DNA from: Patiria pectinifera
Lineage: Eukaryota; Echinodermata; Asteroidea; Valvatida; Asterinidae
Assembly: GCA_029964075.1 (NCBI GenBank)
Contig: CM057144.1
Location: forward strand, 12,113,281-12,177,280
Direction of reading: 5' to 3'
DNA length: 64,000 nt
The notes beneath the pieces were generated by a model. The model had not been told where the DNA came from, made no database searches, and saw only the letters and a list, made by a program, of their open reading frames with translations. This document shows positions 16,401 to 56,154 of this stretch, piece by piece. Positions within the stretch are counted from its first letter, which is position 1, and every line of letters starts with the position of its first letter. Both the position numbers and the translations under genes were made by a program.

Positions 16401-18749
16401 TATAAAGAAGAATTACGGAGTGTGCAGTAATACACGAACGCAGCACCGAGATGATGCAGAGCAAATTTGGGCTGATATCCTTTTGATCTCTATCTCGGTG
16501 ACCTTGATCAGAACTGATCGAGTGTCGCTCACGGGAAACACGCGGCACGTGCTGACCACCCCCCCCCCCCGCATTTATGCATTCCGTGAAATGATTAGGC
16601 CTGCTTTACCTATTGAAGCTTTCAGCCACATTTTCTCGCATTGCGAAATAACTCAATAGTTTTACAAAATAACGCAATACTTATTGTGAAATAACGCGAT
16701 AGTATCGAAATAACGCAATAGTATTGCGAAATAACGCATACTTTTGCGTTATTTAGCAATACTATTGCGTTGTTTTGCAATAATGATTTTTTTTTTCACT
16801 TTTAAAACATGGAACGAACGGGCTTCCGTATGTTTGAGAAGAAACAAGTAAGGCCAAGAAAAAGTCTCCGGTTTCTGGTCTGCGCGCGCGTCGCCGTAGC
16901 CATGCGCGTCGGCAAAATTAAAAAGTTTTTTTTTTAAATGTAAGATGATGTCTCAAAACCGCCGAACTCACTGGTTTGACTAGAATCCTGCTGCTGCACA
17001 ATTTTAACGTGTTTTTAGATGGGGTTACAATCGAGTATAAGCTTTATGTGGCCTCTCTGGGCACCAATACATTTTGCCGACTAAATAAATTCGGGCACCA
17101 TTTGCAGTCATCAACCGACATTTGAAGAGAAAAAAAGTAAAAAAAAACAAAAACCTGCACTACTTTTGGGGCAAGCTCCATACCAGACACCGGAGACTTT
17201 TTTTTTTGGCCTAAGGATTCTATAATTTGATAGTTCTTGATATGATCCAACATATGGTCCAACTATTCATGCTCAATTTCCAAACCAATTTTCTACTGTA
17301 CTTTTATAATTTTAGTGACGGTATTTGAGTATTTTCACTGTAATTGCTGGGGTTTGGTGCCTTCAATTTTGCATTAACGTAGCCAATTGATATCCTCATT
17401 GTGGTATGCTAAATAAACTCAACCCCCAAAGTTTGGTTATCTAAGGTGTCGTTATGTTTGTATATAATACAAACTGTAGATAATGTTCTTGTGTAACAAC
17501 AAACATGTTCACAAGCACTCGTACTTTATTAGTGTCATTGATAATTTATTTCAGTAATCCCATCTTGTCGCCATTCAACTGTGGTAACTGTTACATGAGC
17601 CAGTACCGTACCAGTCACTAACTCTCTGGCAGGTACGGGTAACATGACTGTTAATTTTTCATATTGCGAAAAATTAGTAAAGATTGGCATTGAGTATTTC
17701 CCTTGCATTTTTGCCTCACTTTAACTCTACATTATGTACGTTGAACAAGTATTCGTTAATTTGTGAAATGTCTCCTGTTTGGTACAGAATCCATTTTGTT
17801 TGGACATAATAGGTATTGTAGCTGTGGAAATTTGAATATTTCAAATGCCTTGCATGTGTTCTTAATTGTCAAATTGAAATAACGCAATTTTAGAAATCGT
17901 GCCCACCTTGATAAAACTTTGTAGTCGTGATATTGTACATACTTGCTAAATATTTTCCCACTCCAAGTGATATCAATATTTTCATTCTGTACACAGAACC
18001 CCTCATCGTCTGGTGGCCTTATATTTCCCCTTAATTTTCCCGTTTTTGTCCTTGTTTTACCCGGACCAATTTTGTACATACACTAAACCCCAAAAGAAAG
18101 TCCCTCATTAATACTTTTTTTGTCTAACTCAAAAACTACTGGACACATCTTGCTCCAATTACGACTGATCAGTACATTAATTCCTTAGCAATCCAAACAT
18201 ACTCTTTGTTTGGTCGAAAACAGTGATAATGTGTACACAATTATGCAACTTATGACAACACTTGTACACTTGCAAGGTGAGTGTGAACCGCAACATGCAC
18301 GTATACAAAAGTTGCAACTGTTTTCGGTATCATTCGTCATAAATTGCATACATTCGTACACATTATTAACGTTTTGGTCCAAATAAAGAGACCATTATTC
18401 ACTATACAGTAAAGGTTTTCATAATAATTTGGTAGGTTTGTTTTTTTGGACGTTTGTTGCATATTACCCCACCCGCCACAAACTCACCCAACCCCACCTC
18501 GCCTGCTTTCGTGCACCCCTTTATCATTCCTACGATAAATTATACGTACCTCTGTGGGCAAGCGTTGGGTATCGCAGTCTCCACCTGTAGCTCCAAACAT
18601 CTTCCCAGGAATATCTCCTTGATGAACGGAGTGGTGCCTGTGCTCTCGGGGAAGCAACTTTCCCTCTTTCTGCGGCTCAACCTCTCCATGTATTGCCCGC
18701 AACACAGGCCAACCAACACCAATAACACAAGAATATTCAGCAGCTTCAT
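13480..18749 (-). CDS. ADP-ribosyl cyclase (CD38/Aplysia cyclase family), tandem copy A
   Basis: Seven coding exons: 18550-18749, 16270-16399, 15354-15581, 14900-14976, 14618-14710, 13795-13881, 13480-13555; 296 residues. Start ATG opens a signal peptide (MKLLNILVLLVLVGLCCG, mature end near residue 19). Family marks: KDPC in exon 2, MFWSGT (111-117), TLEDTL (133-138), CPEFW, TVML, then FAKYEFPN with the expected catalytic Glu at 218, ETCGTGSVA, and the late cysteine pair in HIQC...HDDC. These enzymes convert NAD to cyclic ADP-ribose and, by base exchange, NADP to NAADP, both calcium-releasing messengers; the signal peptide places it in the secretory route. No transmembrane segment or clear GPI signal is seen. 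The residue matching Trp189 of CD38 appears to be Tyr180. Intron 3 holds a hAT MITE absent from copy B. Confidence 0.92.
14120..14309. mobile_element. Tc1/mariner- or pogo-type MITE, 190 bp (copy 1)
   Basis: Left end CAGTCGACTCTCGTTA and right end TTAACGAGACTCGACTG are inverted repeats bordered by TA on both sides (14118-14119, 14310-14311). It lies in intron 5 of cyclase copy A. A near-identical copy is at 56488-56674 in the RNA-binding protein gene. Confidence 0.75.
15032..15239. mobile_element. hAT MITE, 208 bp, in intron 3 of cyclase copy A
   Basis: Ends CAACGGCGGAT and, inverted, CAAGGGCGGATCCAG, with the 8-bp duplication GCACCATC at 15024-15031 and 15240-15247. The homologous intron of copy B continues without it, so it inserted after the gene duplication. 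The 42848-43156 element has the same ends. Confidence 0.85.
16641..16790. repeat. Inverted AT-rich repeat of an AATAACGCAATA motif
   Basis: Several direct copies of GAAATAACGCAATA are followed by inverse copies (TGCGTTATTT, ATTGCGTT), so the stretch can fold on itself. It lies in intron 1 of cyclase copy A. Its origin is unknown. Confidence 0.5.
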
Positions 18750-29703: not shown

Positions 29704-29825
29704 GCACCTCTTCGATCGTTTTGCGCAACACATGATCGAGTAGTGTGCAATGACATCGGGGATGACCCTGCATTTCTTCAGAAGCTTACGGCAGCAGCAC
29801 GTGCCTTCCGCTGCCGTCTCCTGCA

Positions 29826-32800
29826 AGGCTAACCCCTTGCAATTTTTGTCAATTTTGGTCAAAAAATGAAATTGCTCCAAACTTCCTGGAAAGACTCCTA
29901 AGGAACCCTCGAACAAATTCCAACTCGATTTAGGGAAAGATATATCATTAATTTTTTTTTATATTTTAGCCTAATTTTATGAAAAATGTGAGGCTAACCC
30001 CTTGCAATTTTTGTCTATTTTGGTCCAAAAATTAAAATGCTCCACACTTCCTGGAAAGACTGTTAAGGAAACCTCGAACACATTCCAACTCGATTTAGGG
30101 AAAGATATATCATTAAAAAGAAAGTTATATTTTAGCCAATTTTTATGAACTGTAGGCTAAGGATCACATTTTCAATTTTTGTCAATTTTGGTCAAAAAAT
30201 GAAATTGCTCCAAATTTCATGGAAGGACTCCTAAGGGACCCTGGAACGCATTCCGACTCGATTTAGGGACATATATATTATTAAAAAGAAATTCATATTT
30301 TAGCCAATTTTTATGAAAAATGTAAGGCTAACCCCTTGCAATTTTTGTCAATTTTGGTCAAAAACTGAAATTGCTCCAAACTTCATGGAAGGACTCCTAA
30401 GGGACTCTGGAACGTATTCCGACTCGATTTGGGGACATTTATATTATTAAAAAGAAATTCATATTTTAGCCAATTTTTATGAAAAATGTAAGGCTAACCC
30501 CTTGCAATTTTTGTCAATTTTGGTCAAAAAATGAAATTGCTCCAAACTTCCTGAAAGGACTCCTAAGGGACCCTGGAACGCATTCCGACTCGATTTAGGG
30601 ACATATATATTATTAAAAAGAAATTCATATTTTAGCCAATTTTTATGAAAAATGTAAGGCTAACCCCTTGCAATTTTTGTCAATTTTGGTCAAAAAATGA
30701 AATTGCTCCAAACTTCATGGAAGGACTCCTTAGGGACCCTGGAACGTATTCCGACTCAATTTGGGGACATTTATATTATTAAAAAGAAATTCATATTTTA
30801 GCCAATTTTTATGAAAAATGTAAGGCTAACCCCTTGCAATTTTTGTCAATTTTGGTCAAAAAATGAAATTGCTCCAAACTTCATGGAAGGACTCCTAAGG
30901 GACCCTGGAACGTATTCCGACTCGATTTGGGGACATTTATATTATTAAAAAGAAATTCATATTTTAGCCAATTTTTATGAAAAATGTAAGGCTAACCCTT
31001 GCAATTTTTGTCAATTTTGGTCAAAAAAAGAAATTGCTCCAAACTTCATGGAAGGACTCCTAAGGGACCCTGGAACGCATTCCGACTCGATTTGGGGACA
31101 TTTATATTATTAAAAAGAAATTCATATTTTAGCCAATTTTTATGAAAAATGTAAGGCTAACCCCTTGCAATTTTGGTCAATTTTGGTCAAAAAATGAAAT
31201 TGCTCCAAACTTCATGGAAGGACTCCTAAGGGACCCTGGAACGCATTCCGACTCGATTTAGGGACATATATATTATTAAAAAGAAATTCATATTTTAGCC
31301 AATTTTTATGAAAAATGTAAGGCTAACCCCTTGCAATTTATGTCAATTTTGGTCCAAAAATGAAATTGCTCCAAACTTCATGGAAGGACTCCTAAGGGAC
31401 CCTGGAACGCATTCCGACTCGATTTGGGGACATATATATTATTTAAAAGAAATTCATATTTTAGCCAATTTTTATGAAAAATGTAAGGTTAACCCCTTGC
31501 AATTTTTGTCAATTTTGGTCAAAAAATAAAATTGCTCCAAACTTCATGGAAGGACTCCTAAGGGACCCTGGAACGTATTCCGACTCGATTTGGGGACATT
31601 TATATTATTAAAAAGAAATTCATATTTTAGCCAATTTTTATGAAAAATGTAAGGCTAACCCCTTGCAATTTTTGTCAATTTTGGTCAAAAAATGAAATTG
31701 CTCCAAACTTCCTGAAAGGACTCCTAAGGGACCCTGGAACGTATTCCGACTCAATTTGGGGACATTTATATTATTAAAAAGAAATTCATATTTTAGCCAA
31801 TTTTTATGAAAAATGTAAGGCTAACCCCTTGCAATTTATGTCAATTTTGGTCAAAAACTGAAATTGCTCCAAACTTCATGGAAGGACTCCTAAGGGACCC
31901 TGGAACGCATTCCGACTCGATTTGGGGACATATATATTATTAAAAAGAAATTCATATTTTAGCCAATTTTTATGAAAAATGTAAGGCTAACCCCTTGCAA
32001 TTTTTGTCAATTTTGGTCAAAAACTGAAATTGCTCCAAACTTCATGGAAGGACTCCTAAGGGACCCTGGAACGTATTCCGACTCGATTTGGGGACATTTA
32101 TATTATTAAAAAGAAATTCATATTTTAGCCAATTTTTATGAAAAATGTAAGGCTAACCCCTTGCAATTTTTGTCAATTTTGGTCAAAAACTGAAATTGCT
32201 CCAAACTTCATGGAAGGACTCCTAAGGGACCCTGGAACGTATTCCGACTCGATTTGGGGACATTTATATTATTAAAAAGAAATTCATACTTTAGCCAATT
32301 TTTATGAAAAATGTAAGGCTAACCCCTTGCAATTTTTGTCAATTTTGGTCAAAAAATGAAATTGCTCCAAACTTCCTATAAGGACTCCTAAGGGACCCTG
32401 GAACGCATTCCGACTCGATTTAGGGACATATATATTATTAAAAAGAAATTCATATTTTAGCCAATTTTTATGAAAAATGTAAGGCTAACCCCTTGCAATT
32501 TTTGTCAATTTTGGTCAAAAAATGAAATTGCTCCAAACTTCATGGAAGGACTCCTTAGGGACCCTGGAACGTATTCCGACTCGATTTGGGGACATTTATA
32601 TTATTAAAAAGAAATTCATATTTTAGCCAATTTTTATGAAAAATGTAAGGCTAACCCTTGCAATTTTTGTCAATTCTGGTCAAAAAAAGAAATTGCTCCA
32701 AACTTCATGGAAGGACTCCTAAGGGACCCTGGAACGCATTCCGACTCGATTTGGGGACATTTATATTATTAAAAAGAAATTCATATTTTAGCCAATTTTT

Positions 32801-34262
32801 ATGAAAAATGTAAGGCTAACCCCTTGCAATTTTGGTCAATTTTGGTCAAAAAATGAAATTGCTCCAAACTTCATGGAAGGACTCCTAAGGGACCCTGGAA
32901 CGCATTCCGACTCGATTTAGGGACATATATATTATTAAAAAGAAATTCATATTTTAGCCAATTTTTATGAAAAATGTAAGGCTAACCCCTTGCAATTGAT
33001 GTCAATTTTGGTCAAAAACTGAAATTGCTCCAAACTTCATGGAAGGACTCCTAAGGGACCCTGGAACGCATTCCGACTCGATTTGGGGACATTTATATTA
33101 TTAAAAAGAAATTCATATTTTAGCCAATTTTTATGAAAAATGTAAGGCTAACCCTTGCAATTTTTGTCAATTTTGGTCAAAAAAAGAAATTGCTCCAAAC
33201 TTCATGGAAGGACTCCTAAGGGACCCTGGAACGCATTCCGACTCGATTTGGGGACATTTATATTATTAAAAAGAAATTCATATTTTAGCCAATTTTTATG
33301 AAAAATGTAAGGCTAACCCCTTGCAATTTTGGTCAATTTTGGTCAAAAAATGAAATTGCTCCAAACTTCATGGAAGGACTCCTAAGGGACCCTGGAACGC
33401 ATTCCGACTCGATTTAGGGACATATATATTATTAAAAAGAAATTCATATTTTAGCCAATTTTTATGAAAAATGTAAGGCTAACCCCTTGCAATTTATGTC
33501 AATTTTGGTCCAAAAATGAAATTGCTCCAAACTTCATGGAAGGACTCCTAAGGGACCCTGGAACGCATTCCGACTCGATTTGGGGACATATATATTATTA
33601 AAAAGAAATTCATATTTTAGCCAATTTTTATGAAAAATGTAAGGCTAACCCCTTGCAATTTTGGTCAATTTTGGTCAAAAAATAAAATTGCTCCAAACTT
33701 CATGGAAGGACTCCTTAGGGACCCTGGAACGTATTCCGACTCGATTTGGGGACATTTATATTATTAAAAAGAAATTCATATTTTAGCCAATTTTTATGAA
33801 AAATGTAAGGCTAACCCCTTGCAATTGATGTCAATTTTGGTCAAAAAATGAAATTGCTCCAAACTTCATGGAAGGACTCCTAAGGGACCCTGGAACGCAT
33901 TCCGACTCGATTTAGGGAAATATATATTATTAAAAAGAAATTCATATTTTAGCCAATTTTTATGAAAAATGTAAGGCTAACCCCTTGCAATTTTTGTCAA
34001 TTTTGGTCAAAAAATGAAATTTCTCCAAACTTCATGGAAGGACTCCTAAGGGACCCTGGAACGTATTCCGACTCGATTTGGGGACATATATATTATTAAA
34101 AAGAAATTCATATTTTTGCCAATTTTTATGAAAAATGTAAGAATAACCCCTTGCAATTGATGTCAATTTTTGTCAAAAAATAAAATTGCTCCAAACTTCC
34201 TGAAAGGACTCCTAAGGGACCCTGGAACGCATTCCGACTCGATTTAGGGACATATATATTAT
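29826..34262. repeat. 166-bp satellite array, left block (about 27 units)
   Basis: Head-to-tail units of 166 bp, each running AAGGCTAACCCCTTGCAA ... GACTCGATTTGGGGACA ... TTTTAGCCAATTTTTATG. The first two or three units are the most diverged. Unit variants recur at about 1.66 kb (ten units) and about 0.5 kb (three units), a higher-order pattern. Since 166 is not a multiple of three, reading frames across units are accidental. The array is cut at 34262 inside a unit by an inserted element. Confidence 0.95.
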
Positions 34263-35249
34263 TATTCTCAGACAACACACAAAACCACACAGTGAGAGTT
34301 GATTTGACTTTTCTGGCATAGATTTTTTGAGCCGCTAATTTATTTCTCCTCGGTAAATGTTTAACTGTATTAAATGTCCGTAAATACGTTAACAAGCTAT
34401 AACATACCAATGAATAATTACCTATTTGCTAAAAGATATTTGCCTTAGAAACATTTTAAACAAGCTAAAAACGGGGCACGCTTGCCCCAAATACTTGCCA
34501 TGCTTGGCATCACTGGGCCCGAAACCTTGGCACGCTTGCCAACCATTCACTAGCCCCACCAGAACAAGTGGGTGCTAGCCAAAGTGTTTTGTCACATGAC
34601 TTAAGTATTTGTCACGTGACTTTAGTATTTATATGCCTATATTACTCAAGAAGTTATTTGTAGTTAAAGCACACCGATTTGGTCCACCGCTCGTAGATAC
34701 GGTTGGCATGCCCCATCAGTACAAATGGGTGCTTGGCGTACTTTTTTACAAAGATTAAACACAACTTGTTAAATGTTTAACGTCCAAATTCAAAGGTTTT
34801 ACTTAAGAACTATTCACCCAACTTGTTTATTTAGTTTGAATTGAGGCACTGCCCGTCGCTCCCAGCCAACTTCGCCCATTTATAGAAGTATAAAAGTATG
34901 GTGGTTGAATGGGAGGTGGTGGGTTTATTTTTGTTGTTGCGGTCTCAAAAAGCTACGCCGAACTGGCCTTTCATCCACGGCGTGCACGTAGTGCGTCTGT
35001 GCGCGCGCGTGGACTTATCACCTTTGTATCAATATTTATATCTCCCTTGGAAGTTACATCAACTTCTGCCTATGAACAGCACTTTTGGCTTGATGCCAGC
35101 AATGGATGGCCAGCTGCAATTTGGGCAATCAATATGTTTACTAATTCCATACCATAGCAACCATCCGCTGATTAACAGAGAGTTTGAAACTCAGCCAGCC
35201 GTGTGTACGTGGAGAATAATGTATTTTATCTTTCAGTGATAAAATGAAT
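34263..35249 (+). mobile_element. Short rolling-circle-like element, 987 bp (first of a tandem pair)
   Basis: Made of a 614-bp left module (34263-34876), 47 unshared bases and a 326-bp right module (34924-35249). Both modules recur in the next element. The left end reads TATTCTCAGACAACACAC. The right module carries the inverse motif GTGTGTACGTGGAGAATA not at the tip but upstream of a terminal hairpin (ATTTTATC/GATAAAAT, 35223-35245), then TGAAT. Inverted repeats placed asymmetrically plus a 3' hairpin, with no target duplication, are Helitron2/Helentron-type traits. No RepHel protein is encoded, so it would be non-autonomous. A tandem deletion derivative of a tyrosine-recombinase element is an alternative. 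Confidence 0.6.
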
Positions 35250-38200
35250 TATTCTCAGACAACACACAAAACCACACAGTGAGAGTTGATTTGACTTTTC
35301 TGGCATAGATTTTTTGAGCCGCTAATTTATTTCTCCTCGGTCAATGTTTAACTGTATTAAATGTCCGTAAATACGTTAACAAGCTATAACATACCAATGA
35401 ATAATTACCTATTTGCTAAAAGATATTTGCCTTAGAAACATTTTAAACAAGCTAAAAACGGGGCACGCTTGCCCCAAATACTTGCCATGCTTGGCATCAC
35501 TGGGCCCGAAACCTTGGCACGCTTGCCAACCATTCACTAGCCCCACCAGAACAAGTGGGTGCTAGCCAAAGTGTTTTGTCACATGACTTAAGTATTTGTC
35601 ACGTGACTTTAGTATTTATATGCCTATATTACTCAAGAAGTTATTTGTAGTTAAAGCACACCGATTTGGTCCACCGCTCGTAGATACGGTTGGCATGCCC
35701 CATCAGTACAAATGGGTGCTTGGCGTACTTTTTTACAAAGATTAAACACAACTTGTTAAATGTTTAACGTCCAAATTCAAAGGTTTTACTTAAGAACTAT
35801 TCACCCAACTTGTTTATTTAGTTTGAATTGAGGCACTGCCCGTCGCTCCCAGCCAACTTCGCCAAACGCGCAACGCGCGCCCCATGGGACGACAGGCAGT
35901 ACCCTCACACCCTTACCCCGAAGAGTAGAACCCCAAAAGAGAAAAACTGAACGAAACAAATACTAGCGCCAGGGTAATACTGGAGTTGTGTATAACTATT
36001 ACCAACTGAGGATAGAGTGCGAACTGCTACCATTTTTTTCTTTTTTTAAGGAGTTAATGTTGCAAACATCATTAATGCTGTAACCTCATCGGCATGCTTG
36101 CCACAAATCTTTGGCACTCTTCCTAAACCACACAAGCTGCCTCTTTGAAATTTTTGAAAATTAAACATGCATAATAATAATACACATTACAAAGTTAGGT
36201 ATTATAATCATACGCCACAACTTGATCATTGGATAACGTTGTCAAAAGAGGTAAAACTAACTACAAATGTTGATTAAATACTTTTATATATTTCTCAAAC
36301 CAATCCTGATCGATATAGATTCAATTGATACAAAGGGGGAAATGTTAGTGGCTACCTTCTAAGCTGGCCTACAAAGTGGCAAAACCATTCGTGGACAGAA
36401 AGAGGACGAAATGTACTATTTTCCCGTGGGTAGATCTAATCTAAATCAGTAAGGGGAAATATCCCCAACATATCAACCTCCTATTGTGAGTATCACTAAC
36501 GTGAACTAAACAAATTAGCTATTATTGCTCCTGAAAAAGGCGAAAAGCAAGTACGAAACCCATCCTGGTGGAAAAGATCGAAAAAATTCCCTTCCAGCCC
36601 CCAAATAGGCGACCAAGTTTTCTTTGTAGTTTTAGGAGCAAAATTATCTGGAGGCATAAAGATTTTTTTTTTAATTTTTTTTTTAAAACTTTTTAATTGT
36701 TTATGTTATCTTCCAAAAGTACAATTATTACTTAAATCCCCTTAAAACAATGAACTTGTTGAAGTAGCCGTTATTAAATGTAAACAGTCAATGTATAGCT
36801 ATAGTTAGTCATTTAAACTGTTTACCTAACGATGAGTATTCCGTGTTCAATGTAAAATAAAATACAGTACAAAATAGCCAGGACTATGTACAACCTACAA
36901 CCCAATACAATGACATCAAAAGCATGAATGCAATTTAGAAAATTCCAAGTTGTAATTTACTTAGCAATATTCATTTCATGTCAAGAAATGTTTCTAACCA
37001 GCTTTATCTGTTCCTTGTTGTTGTTTTTTTGTGAAAAATCATAACCAGCAGGAGGCTTACAAGTAGGGTGCATCAACGTTAACATGACAATGGGAAATAT
37101 TATTACACTTACAGGTAGGCCTACATATGAATAGTACAATTAGGCTGCTAAAGATCTGGGTCAAACACGTAAACGCGCAACGTGTGGTTAAATGTATGTG
37201 TCTACAGATCATATAACTGAGCGTACACTTTATGTTATATTATCCTCCTCAATGCCATCATGCTTTTAAATCGCGTCAACTTAATTGAAATGGATGTCCA
37301 TAGAATTTAATAGGTCATGGTCAAAAAAGTGTGCCGCTTTTTCTGTTGACGGCTTTTTTCCTGTTGACAGTTATTTTCCTGATATTCGCCTTTAGGCAAC
37401 AGTTTATAATCTGGAAGCCAAACTGGCCAAATTGCTGGACGATCAGTACCAACCGAACTTGACAAGATGTCCAACCTTGGAAGACCTCTATGTTGCAAAT
37501 CTGAAGAGCATTCGATGATATGAGTCCCGGTCCCAAACCAATTTGTAGCGTGTGCTATCCCCTGGCATCCTGCAACAGAAAATACTCAAAGCAGCAGCTA
37601 TCCTTTGCAAACATATCTATCTTTTAAATGTATTCATTTATTTTTTGTTTATGTGTTTGTTAGGTTGTTGGGGTGTTGGGGTGTTTGTTTTATTTGTTTT
37701 GTCAGGGTGTTTGTTATCATTATTATCATTATTATTATATAATCTACAGCATCCCACAAATGGGCGGCAGGTTCTTTCTTTTTTTAAAATTTATTTGGCA
37801 AGTCACATCTGGATTTTGGCAACATGCCATGTGGGGGTGACAAATTGGAGTCACCCCTATTGTTAGAACGACCCTTAGGACAAGGAATGTTTCTGTTGCA
37901 AATTATCTAGCTCGAGAAAATCACCAAATTTCGTGAAGAAAAGATAAGAGGTAAACTTGGATTAGGTGATAGTTTAGGTTTGTGCACAAGTCTATGGTAA
38001 AGTCTCGCTGTTATGGCATTAGTAGAAATTATTAATATTTAATTATTACAGTTTGTAGTATAGTATTTCATTATAATTTTAAATGTTAGTATAAATTCCT
38101 ATGGCTTCACAAGTTGGCCCAGGTGACAGAAAAGGATGTCAAGCTAAATAGGAGAGAAACTATACCTCGAATGAATAGGTCCCCCTTAATTGTGTGAAAA

Positions 38201-40870
38201 AGAATCTAGCATTTTGCTGCAATCATATACAAGGTTGGGTTAATTACACATTGTCAAGCGGAGCCTACTGCGTTTTTGAACTCTTTGGCCAGGTTCCTTG
38301 GGTTAACAATTAACATGCCTTTTCAAAATAGGTTAAAAAAGTGTCCATCCACTGATCTCAGATCTGCCAACCTGCTCCGAAAGCAGCTGCTCTGACAAAC
38401 AGCGATCATGTCATGTTTGGCCAAAATCGCAAATTTATGTGGAAGTACTATCTTATCTTAGGAACTGTCAAGATTAATCATGCCAGTGGGGACACTGTCA
38501 CTCTTCTTCTTCTTCTTCTTCTTGTTTTTTTTTTTTTTTTTTTAAATTTGCATTAAAGTGCTGTCTTTACATTTTAATTGTGTAGACCCTACCATTAATA
38601 TCATCATGATTATGTTTATAACTATGTAATTGGCATTACATGCACTGGCTAAAAACTGCTCAGATTGCACCGCGGTGTTATTATAGGCCCTGGGCCCCTA
38701 TTTATTGTATTAGGAACCAATGCCGAAAGATCGGCTCAAATTAGCTGTAGAACAATAACATTTGTCAGACTAGAAATGGTCTGAAAAATTAATTAATTGC
38801 CCAGGGCTGTTTTAGCTCTAGTATCTTATTGGATTGTTTTTTATTTTTTTTATTTTTTTTTATTTGTGTGTTTGTTAGTTTATTTATTTGTTATTCATTT
38901 ACTTCTTATTATGTTTTACGGTTACATTTGCACTCTGGCCACGATTTGAGACAAATACAAATGAAACAAATGAAATAACTGAATAGGCGCTAGAGCCTAG
39001 CCCCTGCTAATTCTTTCATGAGTTTTAGTCCTATATGTTAGGAAAACAAAACAAGCCCCACTGCATGCCTCAACATGTCGTAATATAGGGCCAACAAAGG
39101 CCTATTAATTATATTATTAAACATAAATGGCTGGCTGCAAAAACAAAACTATTGATAAAATTCAATAATTATTATTATTTTTTTTTTATAAATAAAATGA
39201 AGTAGGGACCAGGTATCTCCGTTGAGGGAAGTAATTGCAAAAGCGAATGAACAAGTCAACTGAACACTTAGAATAGCTCATGCTCATAGTCATAGCTTCA
39301 GGAAACCAGTATGTAGGCCTAGGCTTATTAATTATGGCAAACAATTAAGCTACCCAGGTATAAAGTTGACTCAGTAGACTACCAAAGTTTAAAGGCCTCG
39401 GTGATCAAGTGATGCCTAATCGCCATGATTCGCCTTCAGCTTGCAGTGGATAGGCATTTTAACTATCGCGCTTGGTCCCCGAATGATCGAATTTGTATCA
39501 AATCGGCCTAGGCCTATGCCGACGTCAACACCAATGCCCCGTCTGAGTGATCATGGTGATATTACATTCAATGTGCCGTAAAACTCATCAGACATATTGG
39601 ACAATTTGTTCAGTTTAAATATCAAAATCATTAATTCAACTATCCAAATTAGGTCAAACCATGGAGGTATGAAAGGAAATTGTACTTGTAGGATTCAATC
39701 AAATGTCGATCGATCTCCGCACTTTCGATAGGGCCCTATCGCTGGTTGCGTATAATTGAGGCCTATAGCGTTAAAACTAAAATCATAGAAACGGTGAACA
39801 AAAACTTCACACGATATTGCACAGTACAACAAAAAAAACGGGACCAAAACAAATGCTGTGTGATTGGAAAATTCTCACCTTGAATTCCATCATGCATGGC
39901 ATGTTTGAGCATGATGTCCAAGCCAGTGCACCAAGCGGGAAATCTCGAGAGAGGGTCGTGAAGAACAAAGATCCAGCGTTCACACTGCAGGCCGACACGT
40001 TGCCGCGGTCTAGCATGCCGAGAACAACAGCCACCAGCACCGGGGCGGATTGAAAGCTGGGCGGGGATGCGCTGCCCGGACTCGGCTGGAACGCACCGTC
40101 ATGACCGTTGATTTGGCGCCTGGACTTCGGTGTCCGTAAACTTATGACGGGCCATGATTCAAGTAGGACTACACAAGCTTCAATCATGGACGGCTGACAT
40201 AATCCAGTGGTGATTCAGCATTCGAAAAAGTACGAGTAGGCCTAGGCCTAAAACGCTGATACTTGATAGAATTCATGTTCTGGAAACCTTGGACGGCTGT
40301 GACAAATCGCATGAAATGTCGACAAGCGAGCGTATCGCTTGGGCTGACGTTCTGACGAGGCATCTTCTAAAAGCTGTGTGGTCGTACTTGACGTAGGATA
40401 TACGTAAATGCCGTCTCCAAAACCCCAAAAGATCACTGAAGTCAGCTGCATAACATTTGCAAATCATAAGTTCACTAACCGAAGTTCAAATGTGAACGAA
40501 AAATTCATGGAATGTAAGCGAACAAACGCTTATTCCAGGAGAAATTTATTTTTGTTGTTGCGGTCTCAAAAAGCTACGCCGAACTGGCCTTTCATCCACG
40601 GCGTGCACGTAGTGCGTCTGTGCGCGCGCGTGGACTTATCACCTTTGTATCAATATTTATATCTCCCTTGGAAGTTACATCAACTTCTGCCTATGAACAG
40701 CACTTTTGGCTTGATGCCAGCAATGGATGGCCAGCTGCAATTTGGGCAATCAATATGTTTACTAATTCCATACCATAGCAACCATCCGCTGATTAACAGA
40801 GAGTTTGAAACTCAGCCAGCCGTGTGTACGTGGAGAATAATGTATTTTATCTTTCAGTGATAAAATGAAT
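35250..40870 (+). mobile_element. Long rolling-circle-like element, 5,621 bp, with acquired interior
   Basis: Starts directly at the end of the short element with the same 614-bp left module (35250-35863; one base difference was noticed) and ends with the same 326-bp right module (40545-40870). The 4.7-kb interior is not in the short copy. It contains AT-rich and microsatellite-like stretches and, on the minus strand, two exon-like segments of an unrecognised gene (37307-37569 and 39879-39984). No transposase, helicase, reverse transcriptase or recombinase frame was found. At 40871 the satellite resumes in register with the point where it was broken at 34262. Confidence 0.6.
37307..39984 (-). 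pseudogene. Two exon-like segments of an unrecognised gene inside the element
   Basis: Segment 39879-39984 reads CERWIFVLHDPLSRFPAWCT... and ends ...MHDGIQ with an acceptor (ctgcag) and donor (GTGAGA). Segment 37307-37569 begins after a good acceptor (tgttgcag) and continues in frame GCQGIAHATNWFGTGTHIIE, then LPRLDILSSSVGTDRPAIWP, to a stop at 37307-37309. Phase 1 joins phase 1 exactly, giving 122 residues rich in Trp, Cys and His that look protein-like. I do not recognise the family. No start codon, upstream exon or promoter is apparent, so this looks like a gene fragment captured as genomic DNA with its intron. The last 25 or so residues are low-complexity and may be read-through. Confidence 0.45.
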
Positions 40871-42035
40871 TAAAAAGAAATTCATATTTTAGCCACATTT
40901 TATGAAAAATGTAAGGCTAATCCCTTGGAATTTTTGTCAATTTTGGTCAAAAAATGAAATTGCTCCAAACTTCATGGAAGGACTCCTAAGGGACCCTGGA
41001 ACGTATTCCGACTCGATTTGGGGACATATATATTATTAAAAAGAAATTGATATTTTAGCCAATTTTTATGAAAAATGTAAGGCTAACCCCTTGGAATTTT
41101 TGTCAATTTTGGTCAAAAAATGAAATTGCTCCAAACTTCATGGAAGGACTCCTAAGGGACCCTGGAACGTATTCCGACTCGATTTGGGGACATTTATATT
41201 ATTAAAAAGAAATTCAATTTTTATGAAAAATGTAAGGCTAACCCCTTGCAATTTTTGTCAATTTTGGTCAAAAAATGAAATTTCTCCAAACTTCATGGAA
41301 GGACTCCTAAGGGACCCTGGAACGTATTCCGACTCGATTTGGGGACATATATATTATTAAAAAGAAATTCAATTTTTATGAAAAATGTAAGGCTAACCCC
41401 TTGGAATTTTTGTCAATTTTGGTCAAAAAAATGAAATTGCTCCAAACTTCATGGAAGGACTCCTAAGGGACCCTGGAACGTATTCCGACTCGATTTGGGG
41501 ACATATATATTATTAAAAAGAAATTGATATTTTAGCCAATTTTTATGAAAAATGTAAGGCTAACCCCTTGGAATTTTTGTCAATTTTGGTCAAAAAATGA
41601 AATTGCTCCAAACTTCATGGAAGGACTCCTAAGGGACCCTGGAACGTATTCCGACTCGATTTGGGGACATTTATATTATTAAAAAGAAATTCAATTTTTA
41701 TGAAAAATGTAAGAATAACCCCTTGCAATTGATGTCAATTTTTGTCAAAAAATAAAATTGCTCCAAACTTCCTGAAAGGACTCCTAAGGGACCCTGGAAC
41801 GCATTCCGACTCGATTTAGGGACATATATATTATTAAAAAGAAATTCATATTTTAGCCACATTTTATGAAAAATGTAAGGCTAATCCCTTGCAATTTATG
41901 TCAATTTTGGTCCAAAAATGAAAATGCTCCAAACTTCCTGGAAAGACTCTTAAAAGACCCTGGAACACATTCCAACTAGATTTAGGGACAGATATATCAT
42001 TAAAAAGAAATTCATATTCTGGCCAATTTGAGTGA
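40871..42035. repeat. 166-bp satellite array, right block (about 7 units)
   Basis: Same unit as the left block, beginning TAAAAAGAAATTCAT, the exact continuation of the unit broken at 34262. Several units here share a short deletion (AAATTCAATTTTTATG, lacking CATATTTTAGCCA) and GGAATTTTTG in place of GCAATTTTTG, so this block has been homogenised separately. The last unit is strongly diverged. Confidence 0.93.
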
Positions 42036-46620: not shown

Positions 46621-49600
46621 TTAAATACGCCCCTTGCCGGCAAGCTCACTCATGAGTTTGGCATTGTACGCGGCATGTTTCTTCTGCAATTCTTCATCGT
46701 CGACGGCACTTTTGGCCCAGTAGGTCAATCCCAGGGCCGGCCTCCAACGCTCCTTGGACCTTGTTTTATGAGGATAACATCAAATAAAGTTCAATATGAA
46801 TGACCGACTCATAATGAAATCCGACAAAAAAATGTTTTCATTAAAAACAAATTCATACTTACTTGTTTTCTCCTGCTCTGTGAACCATGTACGGATGGTG
46901 GCCCAGCAGAGTTCCTATACAGAGGAAATATAGCATAAAACACAATCAACAAGTCACTTTATTATGCTGAGAAAAGATTTGGCCAATTCATTTAAAACAT
47001 ATAACTCAACCTCCTTCTGTGTTTCAATTAACTTTCCAAATACATGTACTTTGTAATTTACCTACTCAAAACCTACTAATATGTCTTGTCACCTTCAAAC
47101 CTTCTTATGACCTACTGACCTATCTTATGACCTACTGACCTATCTTATGACCTACTGACCTATTTTATGACCTTCTGAACTTCCATGTCACCTACTGACC
47201 TCTCTTGCCCTACTGACCTCCCATGACTTAACTGACCTTGCTTTTGACCTCCTGACCTATGTTATGACCATCTGAACTTCCATTTCACTTTCCGACCTAT
47301 CTTGCCCTACTGACCTCCCATGACTTAACTGACCTTTCTTTTGACCTACTAGCATACCTTATGACCATCTGAACTTCCACGTCACCTACTGACCTCTCTT
47401 GCCCTACTGACCTCCCATGACTTAACTGACCTTGCTTTTGACCTCCTGACCTATGTTATGACCATCTGAACTTCCATTTCACTTTCCGACCTATCTTGCC
47501 CTACTGACCTCCCATGACTTAACTGACCTTTCTTTTGACCTACTAGCATACCTTATGACCATCTGAACTTCCATGTGACCTACTGACCTCACTTGCCCGA
47601 CCGACCTCCCATGACTTAACTGACCTTTCTTTTGACCTCCTGACCTATGTTATGACCATCTGAACTTCCATATCACCTACTGACCTCTCTTGCCCTACTG
47701 ACCTCCCATGACTTAACTGACCTTTCTTTTAACCTACTGGCCTACCTTATGACCATCTGAACTTCCATGTCACCTACTGACCTCTCTTGCCCTACTGACC
47801 TCCCATGACTTAACTGACCTTTCTTTTAACCTACTGGCCTACCTTATGACCATCTGAACTTCCATGTCACCTACTGACCTCTCTTGCCCTACTGACCTCC
47901 CATGACTTAACTGACCTTTCTTTTGACCTACTGGCCTACCTTATGACCATCTGAACTTCCATGTGACCTATTGACCTCTCTTGCCCTACGGACCTCCCAT
48001 GACTTAACTGACCTTTCTTTTGACCTACTGGCCTACCTCATGACCATCTGAACTTCCATGTGACCTACTGACCTCTCTTGCCCGACCGACCTCCCATGAC
48101 TTAACTGACCTTCCTTTTGACCTCCTGACCTTCCTTGTGATTTATCAGCCTACTACTTCTTGCAACTTCCCAACTTCTAGAAACTGCATCTTAGCCTCTT
48201 GGCTTTCTCGACCTCCCACTGACCTCCCTGTGACCTACTGACCTTTCTTGGCTGGCATCACATTCTCGGTCTCTTTCATCCAGTCTTCGTACTCCACCAG
48301 CGCCTGGCTGAAGCCCAAGGCATCTGTCTTACGGTGTTCAAGTTCTCCTTTCCTATCGGACTGCGGGACATAGTACATGCAGCCATTTTCAGCATCCGCG
48401 TCATCCAGGGCAAGCCAAAACGTAATGCCTAACGGATTGAAACAGATTGAGACATGTTACGTCAAACTGTAATCTGTTTACATGGTTTGTTCTTGGATAA
48501 ACTTTGGGGAAGGCCCATATGTAGCCAACCAATTCATGTACACCTTCTAAATTTGCAAGTCTCAATTTGAGCTTTGCATCAGTATTCCATCAAATTTTGT
48601 TGATCATCTAAAAAAATAAATTTTACTGTCCCTCAAAATAGCCAAACTTTCTCAAAAAGCAAGTCCAGAAAAAGTGGTCACATATACTGGAAATTGTTCA
48701 GCCACTTAAACATCCACGTAAACGGCACATAAATAAGACTTGCATGTGGTATGTTTGCGACAGAATGTTTGCGACAGAATGCAACAATGTCAACAAATAC
48801 CACTTCAGAAACTTGAGGGTGTAATGTTGCCTGTCCTTTGTGCGATTTAAACTTAGTCTGGTGTCAAATCGAGAAAATATTAGCCTTAGCAAAAACCAAC
48901 CTTTATCATGCATGAAGTATTTGCCGTCTTGATGTGCAGGGGTGCATTTGGCTCCCGGTGGCTTGGAGAAATATTGCACGTTGTTCGGGATGCACTTTTC
49001 ACCCAAGAGTAAGTCAGCTAGCCCATTGAAAGCAGGCGATTCTCCCAGATCCTGGGAAGAGGGTCAAAGGTCAAAGAAAAAGAAAGAAAATCAACCCACG
49101 AGAATCAGGTGAGACTTAAAGATATAGTCCATCATTAATGTCATTTGTGAATTGAGCATTTTGTTCGTTTGAAGCAACAAAAGTGCTCAAAATCTAAATC
49201 AGGGTACTGAACAACTAACCTGATGAAGTTTCAGCTCAGCTTCAGCTGTATATTCTGAGAAAAACAGCATTCTAGGATCTCAATTTCAAATCAAAAGTAG
49301 CTGAATCATGTTTTAAATTGGGCCTGAATTCAGCGTCCGAGACACGTTCTCACTGAGCCGATTGCAGCTACGCGATGTCGCGCACTGATCCGACGAATTA
49401 TAGCAACTGCGCACGCGTGTGCGTTGCCAGTGCCAATGCTTGCGCCTGCTTCGCTGAACAACAAAACGAACTACTAATTTAAATTTCCTTCTGTGCGTCT
49501 TAAGAAGCACCGGTGGGAAGGCCTTTTTTTTATTATTACTTCAAAATGACAGCTTCCCAGAAAGAATAATTTCACAGGGAGTTTAGTCCCCTTAATATCT

Positions 49601-55696: not shown

Positions 55697-56074
55697 GAAC
55701 AGCTTGTGACTCAACTTGGGACTGGCTCGAGAACAGCTTGTGACTCAACTTTGGACTGGCTCGAGAACAGCTTGTGACTAAACTTTGGACTGGCTCAAGA
55801 ACAGCTTGTGACTCAACTTGGGACTGGCTCGAGAACAGCTTGTGACTCAACCTGGGACTGGCTCGAGAACAGCTTGTGTGACTCAACTTGGGACTGGCTC
55901 GAGAACAGCTTGTGACTCAACTTGGAACTGGCTCGAGAACAGCTTGTGACTCAACTTGGGACTGGCTCGAGAACAGCTTGTGACTCAACTTGGGACTGGC
56001 TCGAGAACAGCTTGTGTGACTCAACTTGGGACTGGCTCGAGAACAGCTTGTGACTCAACTTGGAACTGGCTCGA
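55697..56074. repeat. 34-bp minisatellite, 11 units
   Basis: Units read GAACAGCTTGTGACTCAACT followed by TGGGACTGGCTCGA. Two units carry an extra GT (TGTGTGACTC), each followed by a unit with GGAACTGG, so a four-unit block has itself been duplicated. Ten of eleven units contain TGACTCA; one has TGACTAA. Confidence 0.95.
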
Positions 56075-56154
56075 GAGGACCTGTGTGGACCTGTGATGGA
56101 CTTGACTATCACATTGTTGATTTACCTTTCTTGATGTTGCTGAGATGCGGTCAG

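Follow-up and report, generated by a model that had tools for sequence, protein, structure and literature searches.

Two non-coding Helentron-like elements in tandem split a satellite array in Patiria pectinifera and recur as an ordered pair

In a 64-kb stretch of the Patiria pectinifera genome (the window, C16:12113281-12177280 of a 613.5-Mb genome in 1020 contigs), a 166-bp satellite array is interrupted by two head-to-tail, non-coding, Helentron-like elements, a short one (S, 987 bp) followed by a long one (L, 5621 bp). The two recur elsewhere in the genome as an ordered pair, S before L, and it is this recurrence that is new here, the traits of HINE and Helitron2 elements being already known. 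S and L probably represent a composite non-autonomous Helitron2/Helentron unit, two members of one family inserted together, in which the inner terminator (that of S) is usually read through and the arms are kept alike by conversion.

The split satellite and the anatomy of the insert

Tandem Repeats Finder follows the satellite (period 166 bp) from 29825 to 34264 and picks it up again at 40869. Alignment of the joined flanks with intact satellite units places the insert at 34262-40869, with the left border between TATATATTA and TTATTCTC and the right border between GATAAAATGAA and TTAAAAAG. When the flanks are joined in silico they restore an intact satellite unit, with 0 bases gained and 0 lost. 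The original prediction of a satellite precisely split without target duplication is thus confirmed; its bounds for the insert are refined, and what it took for a single element is two complete elements in tandem. The features of the locus are:

29825..34261, no strand: 166-bp satellite array left of the insert (Tandem Repeats Finder, 26.8 copies; end fixed by empty-site comparison)
34262..35248, + strand: short element S, 987 bp, composed of left arm A, spacer and right arm B (start TTATTCTC and end AAAATGAA read directly; the S unit is also found at other genome places)
34262..34876, + strand: left arm A of S (99.8% identical to arm A of L)
34877..34923, + strand: S-specific 47-bp spacer (absent from L; a homologous spacer occurs in subfamily 2)
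34924..35248, + strand: right arm B of S (3' subterminal repeat GAGAATAA from 35212; hairpin at about 35223-35245, placed from the identical folded L end)
35249..40869, + strand: long element L, 5621 bp, composed of arm A, interior X and arm B (end reading, arm comparison and interior copies in the genome)
35249..35863, + strand: left arm A of L (arm comparison with S)
35864..40544, + strand: interior X of L, about 4.7 kb, with no coding sequence recognised (Pfam scan of seven open frames of L, Rfam scan of the window, genome matches)
40545..40869, + strand: right arm B of L (arm comparison with S)
40833..40840, + strand: GAGAATAA, the inverse of the 5' TTATTCTC, 29 nt before the 3' end (read directly)
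40844..40866, + strand: 3' hairpin with an 8-bp stem and a 7-nt loop, 3 nt before the end (folding)
40870..42029, no strand: 166-bp satellite array right of the insert (Tandem Repeats Finder)

S and L share their start (TTATTCTC), their end (GATAAAATGAA), a left arm of about 615 bp and a right arm of 325 bp, which correspond to the repeated modules (about 614 and 326 bp) described earlier. The first 300 bases are 100% identical in both comparisons (arm A, 34261-34560 with 35248-35547; arm B, 34924-35223 with 40545-40844), and over their full lengths arms A are 99.8% and arms B 100% identical. The elements meet at ATGAA/TTATTC, an exact junction of tail to head. The best match to the S spacer within L is only 11 nt long and lies on the opposite strand. 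None of the seven scanned open frames of L had a Pfam match at E 0.1, and no Rfam match was found anywhere in the 64-kb window. Genome matches to X fall mostly at L-family places, with a few weaker ones at C1:15.00, C22:4.16 and C20:31.5-31.7 Mb; apart from these weaker matches, the genome searches showed no host gene as a source of X.

Three further repeats were seen in the window: a 97-bp tandem array at 47111-48140 (10.6 copies), within a stretch of very strong C over G skew; a 34-bp tandem array of GAACAGCTTGTGACTCAACTTGGGACTGGCTCGA at 55697-56076 (11 copies); and, at 16640-16782, 21-bp repeats followed by what appears to be their inverse (ATTGCGAAATAACGCAATAGT and ATACTATTGCGTTATTTAGCA).

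Ends, target sites and copies in the genome

The inverted ends (ATTATTCTC...ACACAC and GTGTGT...GAGAATAAT) are asymmetric and complementary at 15 of 20 positions, and the 3' hairpin of L folds at -5.2 kcal/mol (z -3.2; 4 of 200 shuffles equally stable), both in line with the original prediction. All 34 left ends listed start with TTATTCTC, and so with a 5' TT of their own (34/34), while nearly every copy read ends with GATAAAATGAA. These two ends do not fit a canonical Helitron (Helitron1), whose defining motifs are given in the available text of PMC5148889 as 5' TC, 3' CTRR and insertion between A and T.

Other copies of the modules were searched for, as had been proposed, and each end has about 200 in the genome. 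With up to 2 mismatches allowed, the 19-nt type-1 left end occurs 212 times, compared with 8 for its reversed control, and the 22-nt right end, with up to 3 allowed, is found 189 times, compared with 31; for type-1 left ends and right ends, the pair tallies given below rest on about 100 places per search among the matches listed. Exact matches to the 37-nt 3' end number 110, and those to its reversed control 0, which argues that the copy family does not arise by chance. A second subfamily has a left end of its own (up to 1 mismatch; 61 occurrences, control 0) and arms that are 83% (A) and 75% (B) identical to those in the window. Its inverted repeat is altered in step on both sides (ACGCAC/GTGCGT versus ACACAC/GTGTGT), and its last 38 nt are the same as those of type 1. 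At C22:8893500-8900500, five S stand in tandem as a two-unit higher-order array, in which identity is 98.7% between units two apart and about 95% between adjacent ones, and the 3' hairpin is altered in the second and fourth.

The proposed comparison with empty sites was made for the 14 insertions that have both outer ends: 8 proved seamless, 2 had gaps nearby and 4 had no empty site in the data compared, the empty sites being taken from arrays or paralogs and the seamless one at C6 covering only 32 bases. Among 32 distinct right flanks, the first base is T in 18, A in 11, G in 2 and C in 1, followed by T in 26, A in 22 and T in 22 at the next three positions; 15 start with TT. The base to the left of the insertion is A in 19 of 33 flanks and T in 7. 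A 3-bp ATT duplication, previously considered an equally exact reading of the borders, is excluded because the empty sites are seamless in 8 of 14 cases and because 17 of the 32 right flanks do not start with TT. The suggested insertion between two Ts likewise does not hold as a strict T^T target (T on the left in 7/33, on the right in 18/32). Judging from the right-flank base counts, the target resembles TTAT, the element's own tip, rather than strict TT.

Compared with the traits that define HINE elements, target duplication or deletion is absent, asymmetric subterminal inverted repeats and a 3'-end stem-loop are both present, and insertion is not confined to a TT dinucleotide. Because of the lack of target duplication, the asymmetric inverted repeats and the 3' hairpin, the insert fits the class of non-autonomous Helitron2/Helentron (HINE) elements. 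The Helitron2/Helentron assignment made earlier is supported in part: the seamless sites, the inverted repeats, the hairpin, the many copies and the presence of a Helentron-type element elsewhere in the genome speak for it, the strict T^T target does not hold, and no autonomous relative with the same ends was found among the ends listed.

Order and common history of S and L

There are 28 type-1 L interiors, 20 of which have a left end among those listed, and S lies directly upstream of 13 of these 20. The other 7 have no S upstream; two of them, C20:19.93 and 19.94, have right flanks in common and could stem from a single insertion. For 11 S of subfamily 2 the downstream element has both of its ends listed, and in 10 cases its right-end distance is that of an L, C21:12.04 being the exception; C19 provides one more S-L by spacing. 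Together with C21:12.04, four S (the others at C21:12.95, C124 and C597) precede a unit that was not assigned as L. The S-then-L pairs thus number 24 (13 type-1 and 11 subfamily-2), and no array starting with L was seen among the ends listed, giving 24 to 0 for S-L versus L-S (sign test, 1.2e-7), where most L-like units were recognised from a distance of 4-8 kb between their ends and the L of most subfamily-2 pairs from end spacing only. A further element after L, counted by its left end so that a mutated left end would escape the count, was found in 0 of 17 type-1 cases and 2 of 25 subfamily-2 cases, both in arrays beginning with S; C14:31.13 is S-L followed by another left end, and C19:16.5 is S-L-S-L.

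Twelve subfamily-2 loci, chosen by right-end spacing and including two that share flanks and count as one insertion (C20:24.76 and 24.86), were read. Ten have S, one of these internally deleted; the other two are a truncated S with an S spacer and C17:9.36 Mb, where the unit before L has no assignment. Head-to-tail junctions are exact at all loci read but one. S also precedes L far more often than it precedes another S (13/20 L versus 5/35 classified S, the latter at 2 loci; Fisher p 0.0002, or 0.00001 with the C22 array counted as one, unclassified left ends being omitted).

Linked S and L resemble each other more closely than do S and L from different pairs. In type 1, the mean distance between arms A of linked elements (12 pairs) is 0.0042, compared with 0.0080 when partners are shuffled, and between arms B (10 pairs) it is 0.0061, compared with 0.0164. 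With paired loci only as the control, 0 of 100,000 permutations were as low as observed for either arm. Distances between unlinked elements (0.0219 for A, 0.0210 for B) were not used as the main control because the arm-A set of 19 L includes C3:11.0, a truncated S, and C8:9.04, a fragment. Seen from S, arm A places the linked L closest, or in a tie, for 10 of 13 copies, and arm B does so for 9 of 11. Private arm variants, such as the AT/A set of C14:37.83 and C18:12.96, are present in both S and L, and these two loci are sisters (support 0.991) on a tree of X from 16 L copies that omits C2 (too short), C3:11.0 and C8. Two solo L are nested among pairs on the same tree (C16:1.21, support 0.933; C20:26.32, support 0.999). 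A single complete subfamily-2 pair was read, C9:5.10; its S and L arms are 99.8% and 99.7% identical, whereas the two subfamilies are 17-25% apart. The spacer of S belongs to the subfamily of its L in all 24 readable pairs (11 type 1, 13 subfamily 2; 23 with a duplicated locus counted once, and with the spacer unparsed at C15 and C17).

Transposition of the pair, its relatives and the search for an autonomous partner

Joint transposition of S and L, with bypass of the inner terminator and conversion between the arms, is the most economical account of these observations. A RepHel protein acting in trans would nick the outer 5' end, before TTAT, and unwind through S, usually passing the internal 3' end of S and halting at the 3' end of L; the strand would then be joined to an N^(T/A)TAT target, near the letters of the element's own 5' tip. 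A start at the inner 5' end would yield a solo L, and a stop at the first 3' end a solo S. Gene conversion or recombination between the members of a pair may keep the repeated arms similar, and the spacer of S and the interior of L would be inherited separately. Several findings count against this account. Like arms could also come from conversion after separate insertions; arm A puts another L closer than the linked one for 3 of 13 S, and arm B for 2 of 11, and the second S at C19 is an exception to the likeness of the arms, being about 12% different from its neighbours. Also weighing against it are the seven solo type-1 L, the unassigned unit at C17:9.36 Mb, a target that is not strictly TT, and the lack of a RepHel with S/L ends among the ends listed.

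Successive Helentron/HINE insertions, in which L arrived first, S entered later exactly at the 5' tip of L (a favoured TTAT) and gene conversion evened the arms, seem unlikely, even though the (T/A)TAT consensus of the right target resembles the 5' tip TTAT and, in Fusarium, a Helitron2 element is described in the available text of PMC5148889 as lying 2 bp upstream of the 5' end of another. The left arm of about 615 bp is near-identical in the two elements, so S would be expected before S as before L, and chance entry of S is hard to fit to the 13/20 and 5/35 given above; mixed-subfamily pairs, moreover, are 0 of the 24 readable. At C14:37.83 Mb, S ends in bases that match the flank to the left of the pair. 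Such a junction suits either reading, being what later entry of S might leave and also what conversion of arm A of L by arm A of S would be expected to produce if it ran slightly past the edge.

Integration of rolling-circle concatemers, with a circular dimer of S and L opened at whichever junction is cut, is very unlikely. Exact junctions at all loci read but one, the S-L-S-L locus and the two-unit period of the five S on C22 (98.7% versus about 95%) would all be consistent with it, but a circle of this kind would have two junctions that match over hundreds of bases, and L-S should then be as frequent as S-L, in contrast to the 24 S-L and no L-first array (1.2e-7), a count in which most subfamily-2 L were called from end spacing only and C17 has no assignment. 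An element of another class, moved by a tyrosine recombinase or a DDE transposase, is a highly improbable source of the insertion: no RepHel with S/L ends was found among the listed ends, but the 8 seamless empty sites have no duplication, the target has no invariant crossover core, and asymmetric ends with a 3' hairpin are rolling-circle traits.

If S and L do move jointly, the regular mobile unit could possibly be the ordered pair itself, with an intact internal terminator that is routinely ignored, arms kept by recombination, and the first 5' end held during transfer; we put this forward only tentatively. Because the two junctions would be impossible to tell apart, the S-before-L order would mean direct transfer from donor to target with the 5' end held, rather than a free circle reopened anywhere. 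To our knowledge, neither the passage of Helitron-type elements from donor to target nor the frequency of terminator bypass is settled (see PMC5876387 and PMC5148889). The pair is a naturally occurring dimer whose halves can be told apart and whose junctions are nearly identical, and thus offers a test in which the polarity of independent insertions records the junction used. It also provides a case of repeated arms that would evolve together, as in LTRs, in a rolling-circle element.

Known systems share parts of this arrangement. Non-autonomous HINE/DINE-1 Helentrons, as described in the available text of PMC4067079, have an unmodified target, T-rich or A/T-rich target sites, subterminal inverted repeats, a 3' palindrome and no coding capacity. 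In those elements the 5' repeat is set 2-4 nt in from its terminus and the 3' repeat 38-60 bp in, with the palindrome 8-35 bp from the 3' terminus, whereas the corresponding distances in S and L are 0 nt, 29 nt and, for the hairpin, 3 nt; the targets of S and L, in addition, are not strictly TT, and two different elements recur as an ordered pair. For the distances of the repeats from the tips, the published elements compared are those of mites. In Fusarium, the Helitron2-like FoHeli elements have asymmetric terminal inverted repeats, a T at the 5' tip, reconstructed pre-insertion sites, self-insertion and tandem cases, but in the available text of PMC5148889 the tandems are single cases and autonomous FoHeli encode RepHel, while the S-L order recurs in two subfamilies and S and L have no RepHel. 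Tandem Helitron arrays with head-to-tail junctions are known from bat, silkworm and plants (cited in the available text of PMC4067079 and PMC5876387) and have been explained by a bypassed termination signal (PMC4067079); unlike those arrays as cited there, S and L are two kinds of unit in fixed order with arms that appear to evolve together. In the Pacific oyster, Cg_HINE also links non-autonomous Helentrons with satellite DNA, though according to the available text of PMC7492417 it carries tandem repeats inside, whereas the S-L pair sits inside a satellite. No ordered two-element Helentron was found among the papers listed, a weak negative, as one survey showed a small part of its matches, mostly from other fields.

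The original prediction also called for an autonomous RepHel relative with the same ends, and none was found among the ends listed. Distances were taken from 132 of the 148 Helitron_like_N matches to 75 left ends of type 1, 61 left ends of subfamily 2 and 111 typed right ends, one of which was entered twice; the nearest matches lie 9.5, 13.4 and 15.8 kb away. The first of these (C21:14.02 Mb, near a subfamily-2 left end at C21:14.03 Mb) is weak, below cut-off, interrupted by four stops and on the other strand; the match at 15.8 kb lies inside an insert that apparently splits an L. A 31-kb candidate at C3:16842392-16873984 was rejected as an autonomous element, as its left and middle L pieces and right end fit one split L; they suggest an L split by about 26 kb with a Helitron_like_N match on the other strand. 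Similarly, a 9.9-kb candidate at C13 consists of an old S and a separate L, and the genome-wide Helitron_like_N search had no match there. Two further candidates, at C1:2.72 and C2:21.18 Mb, are copies of a Helentron with a different 3' end. They are 98% identical over 5.4 kb, their homology ends after ...ACACACTTTTCTT[G/T]TTATT, and the C1 copy has Rep, PIF1 and endonuclease in separate frames. Helitron_like_N matches cluster on contig C7, which has 75 of the 132 typed places, and several weak ones with stops, tens of kb apart, lie at C21:13.93-14.07 Mb.
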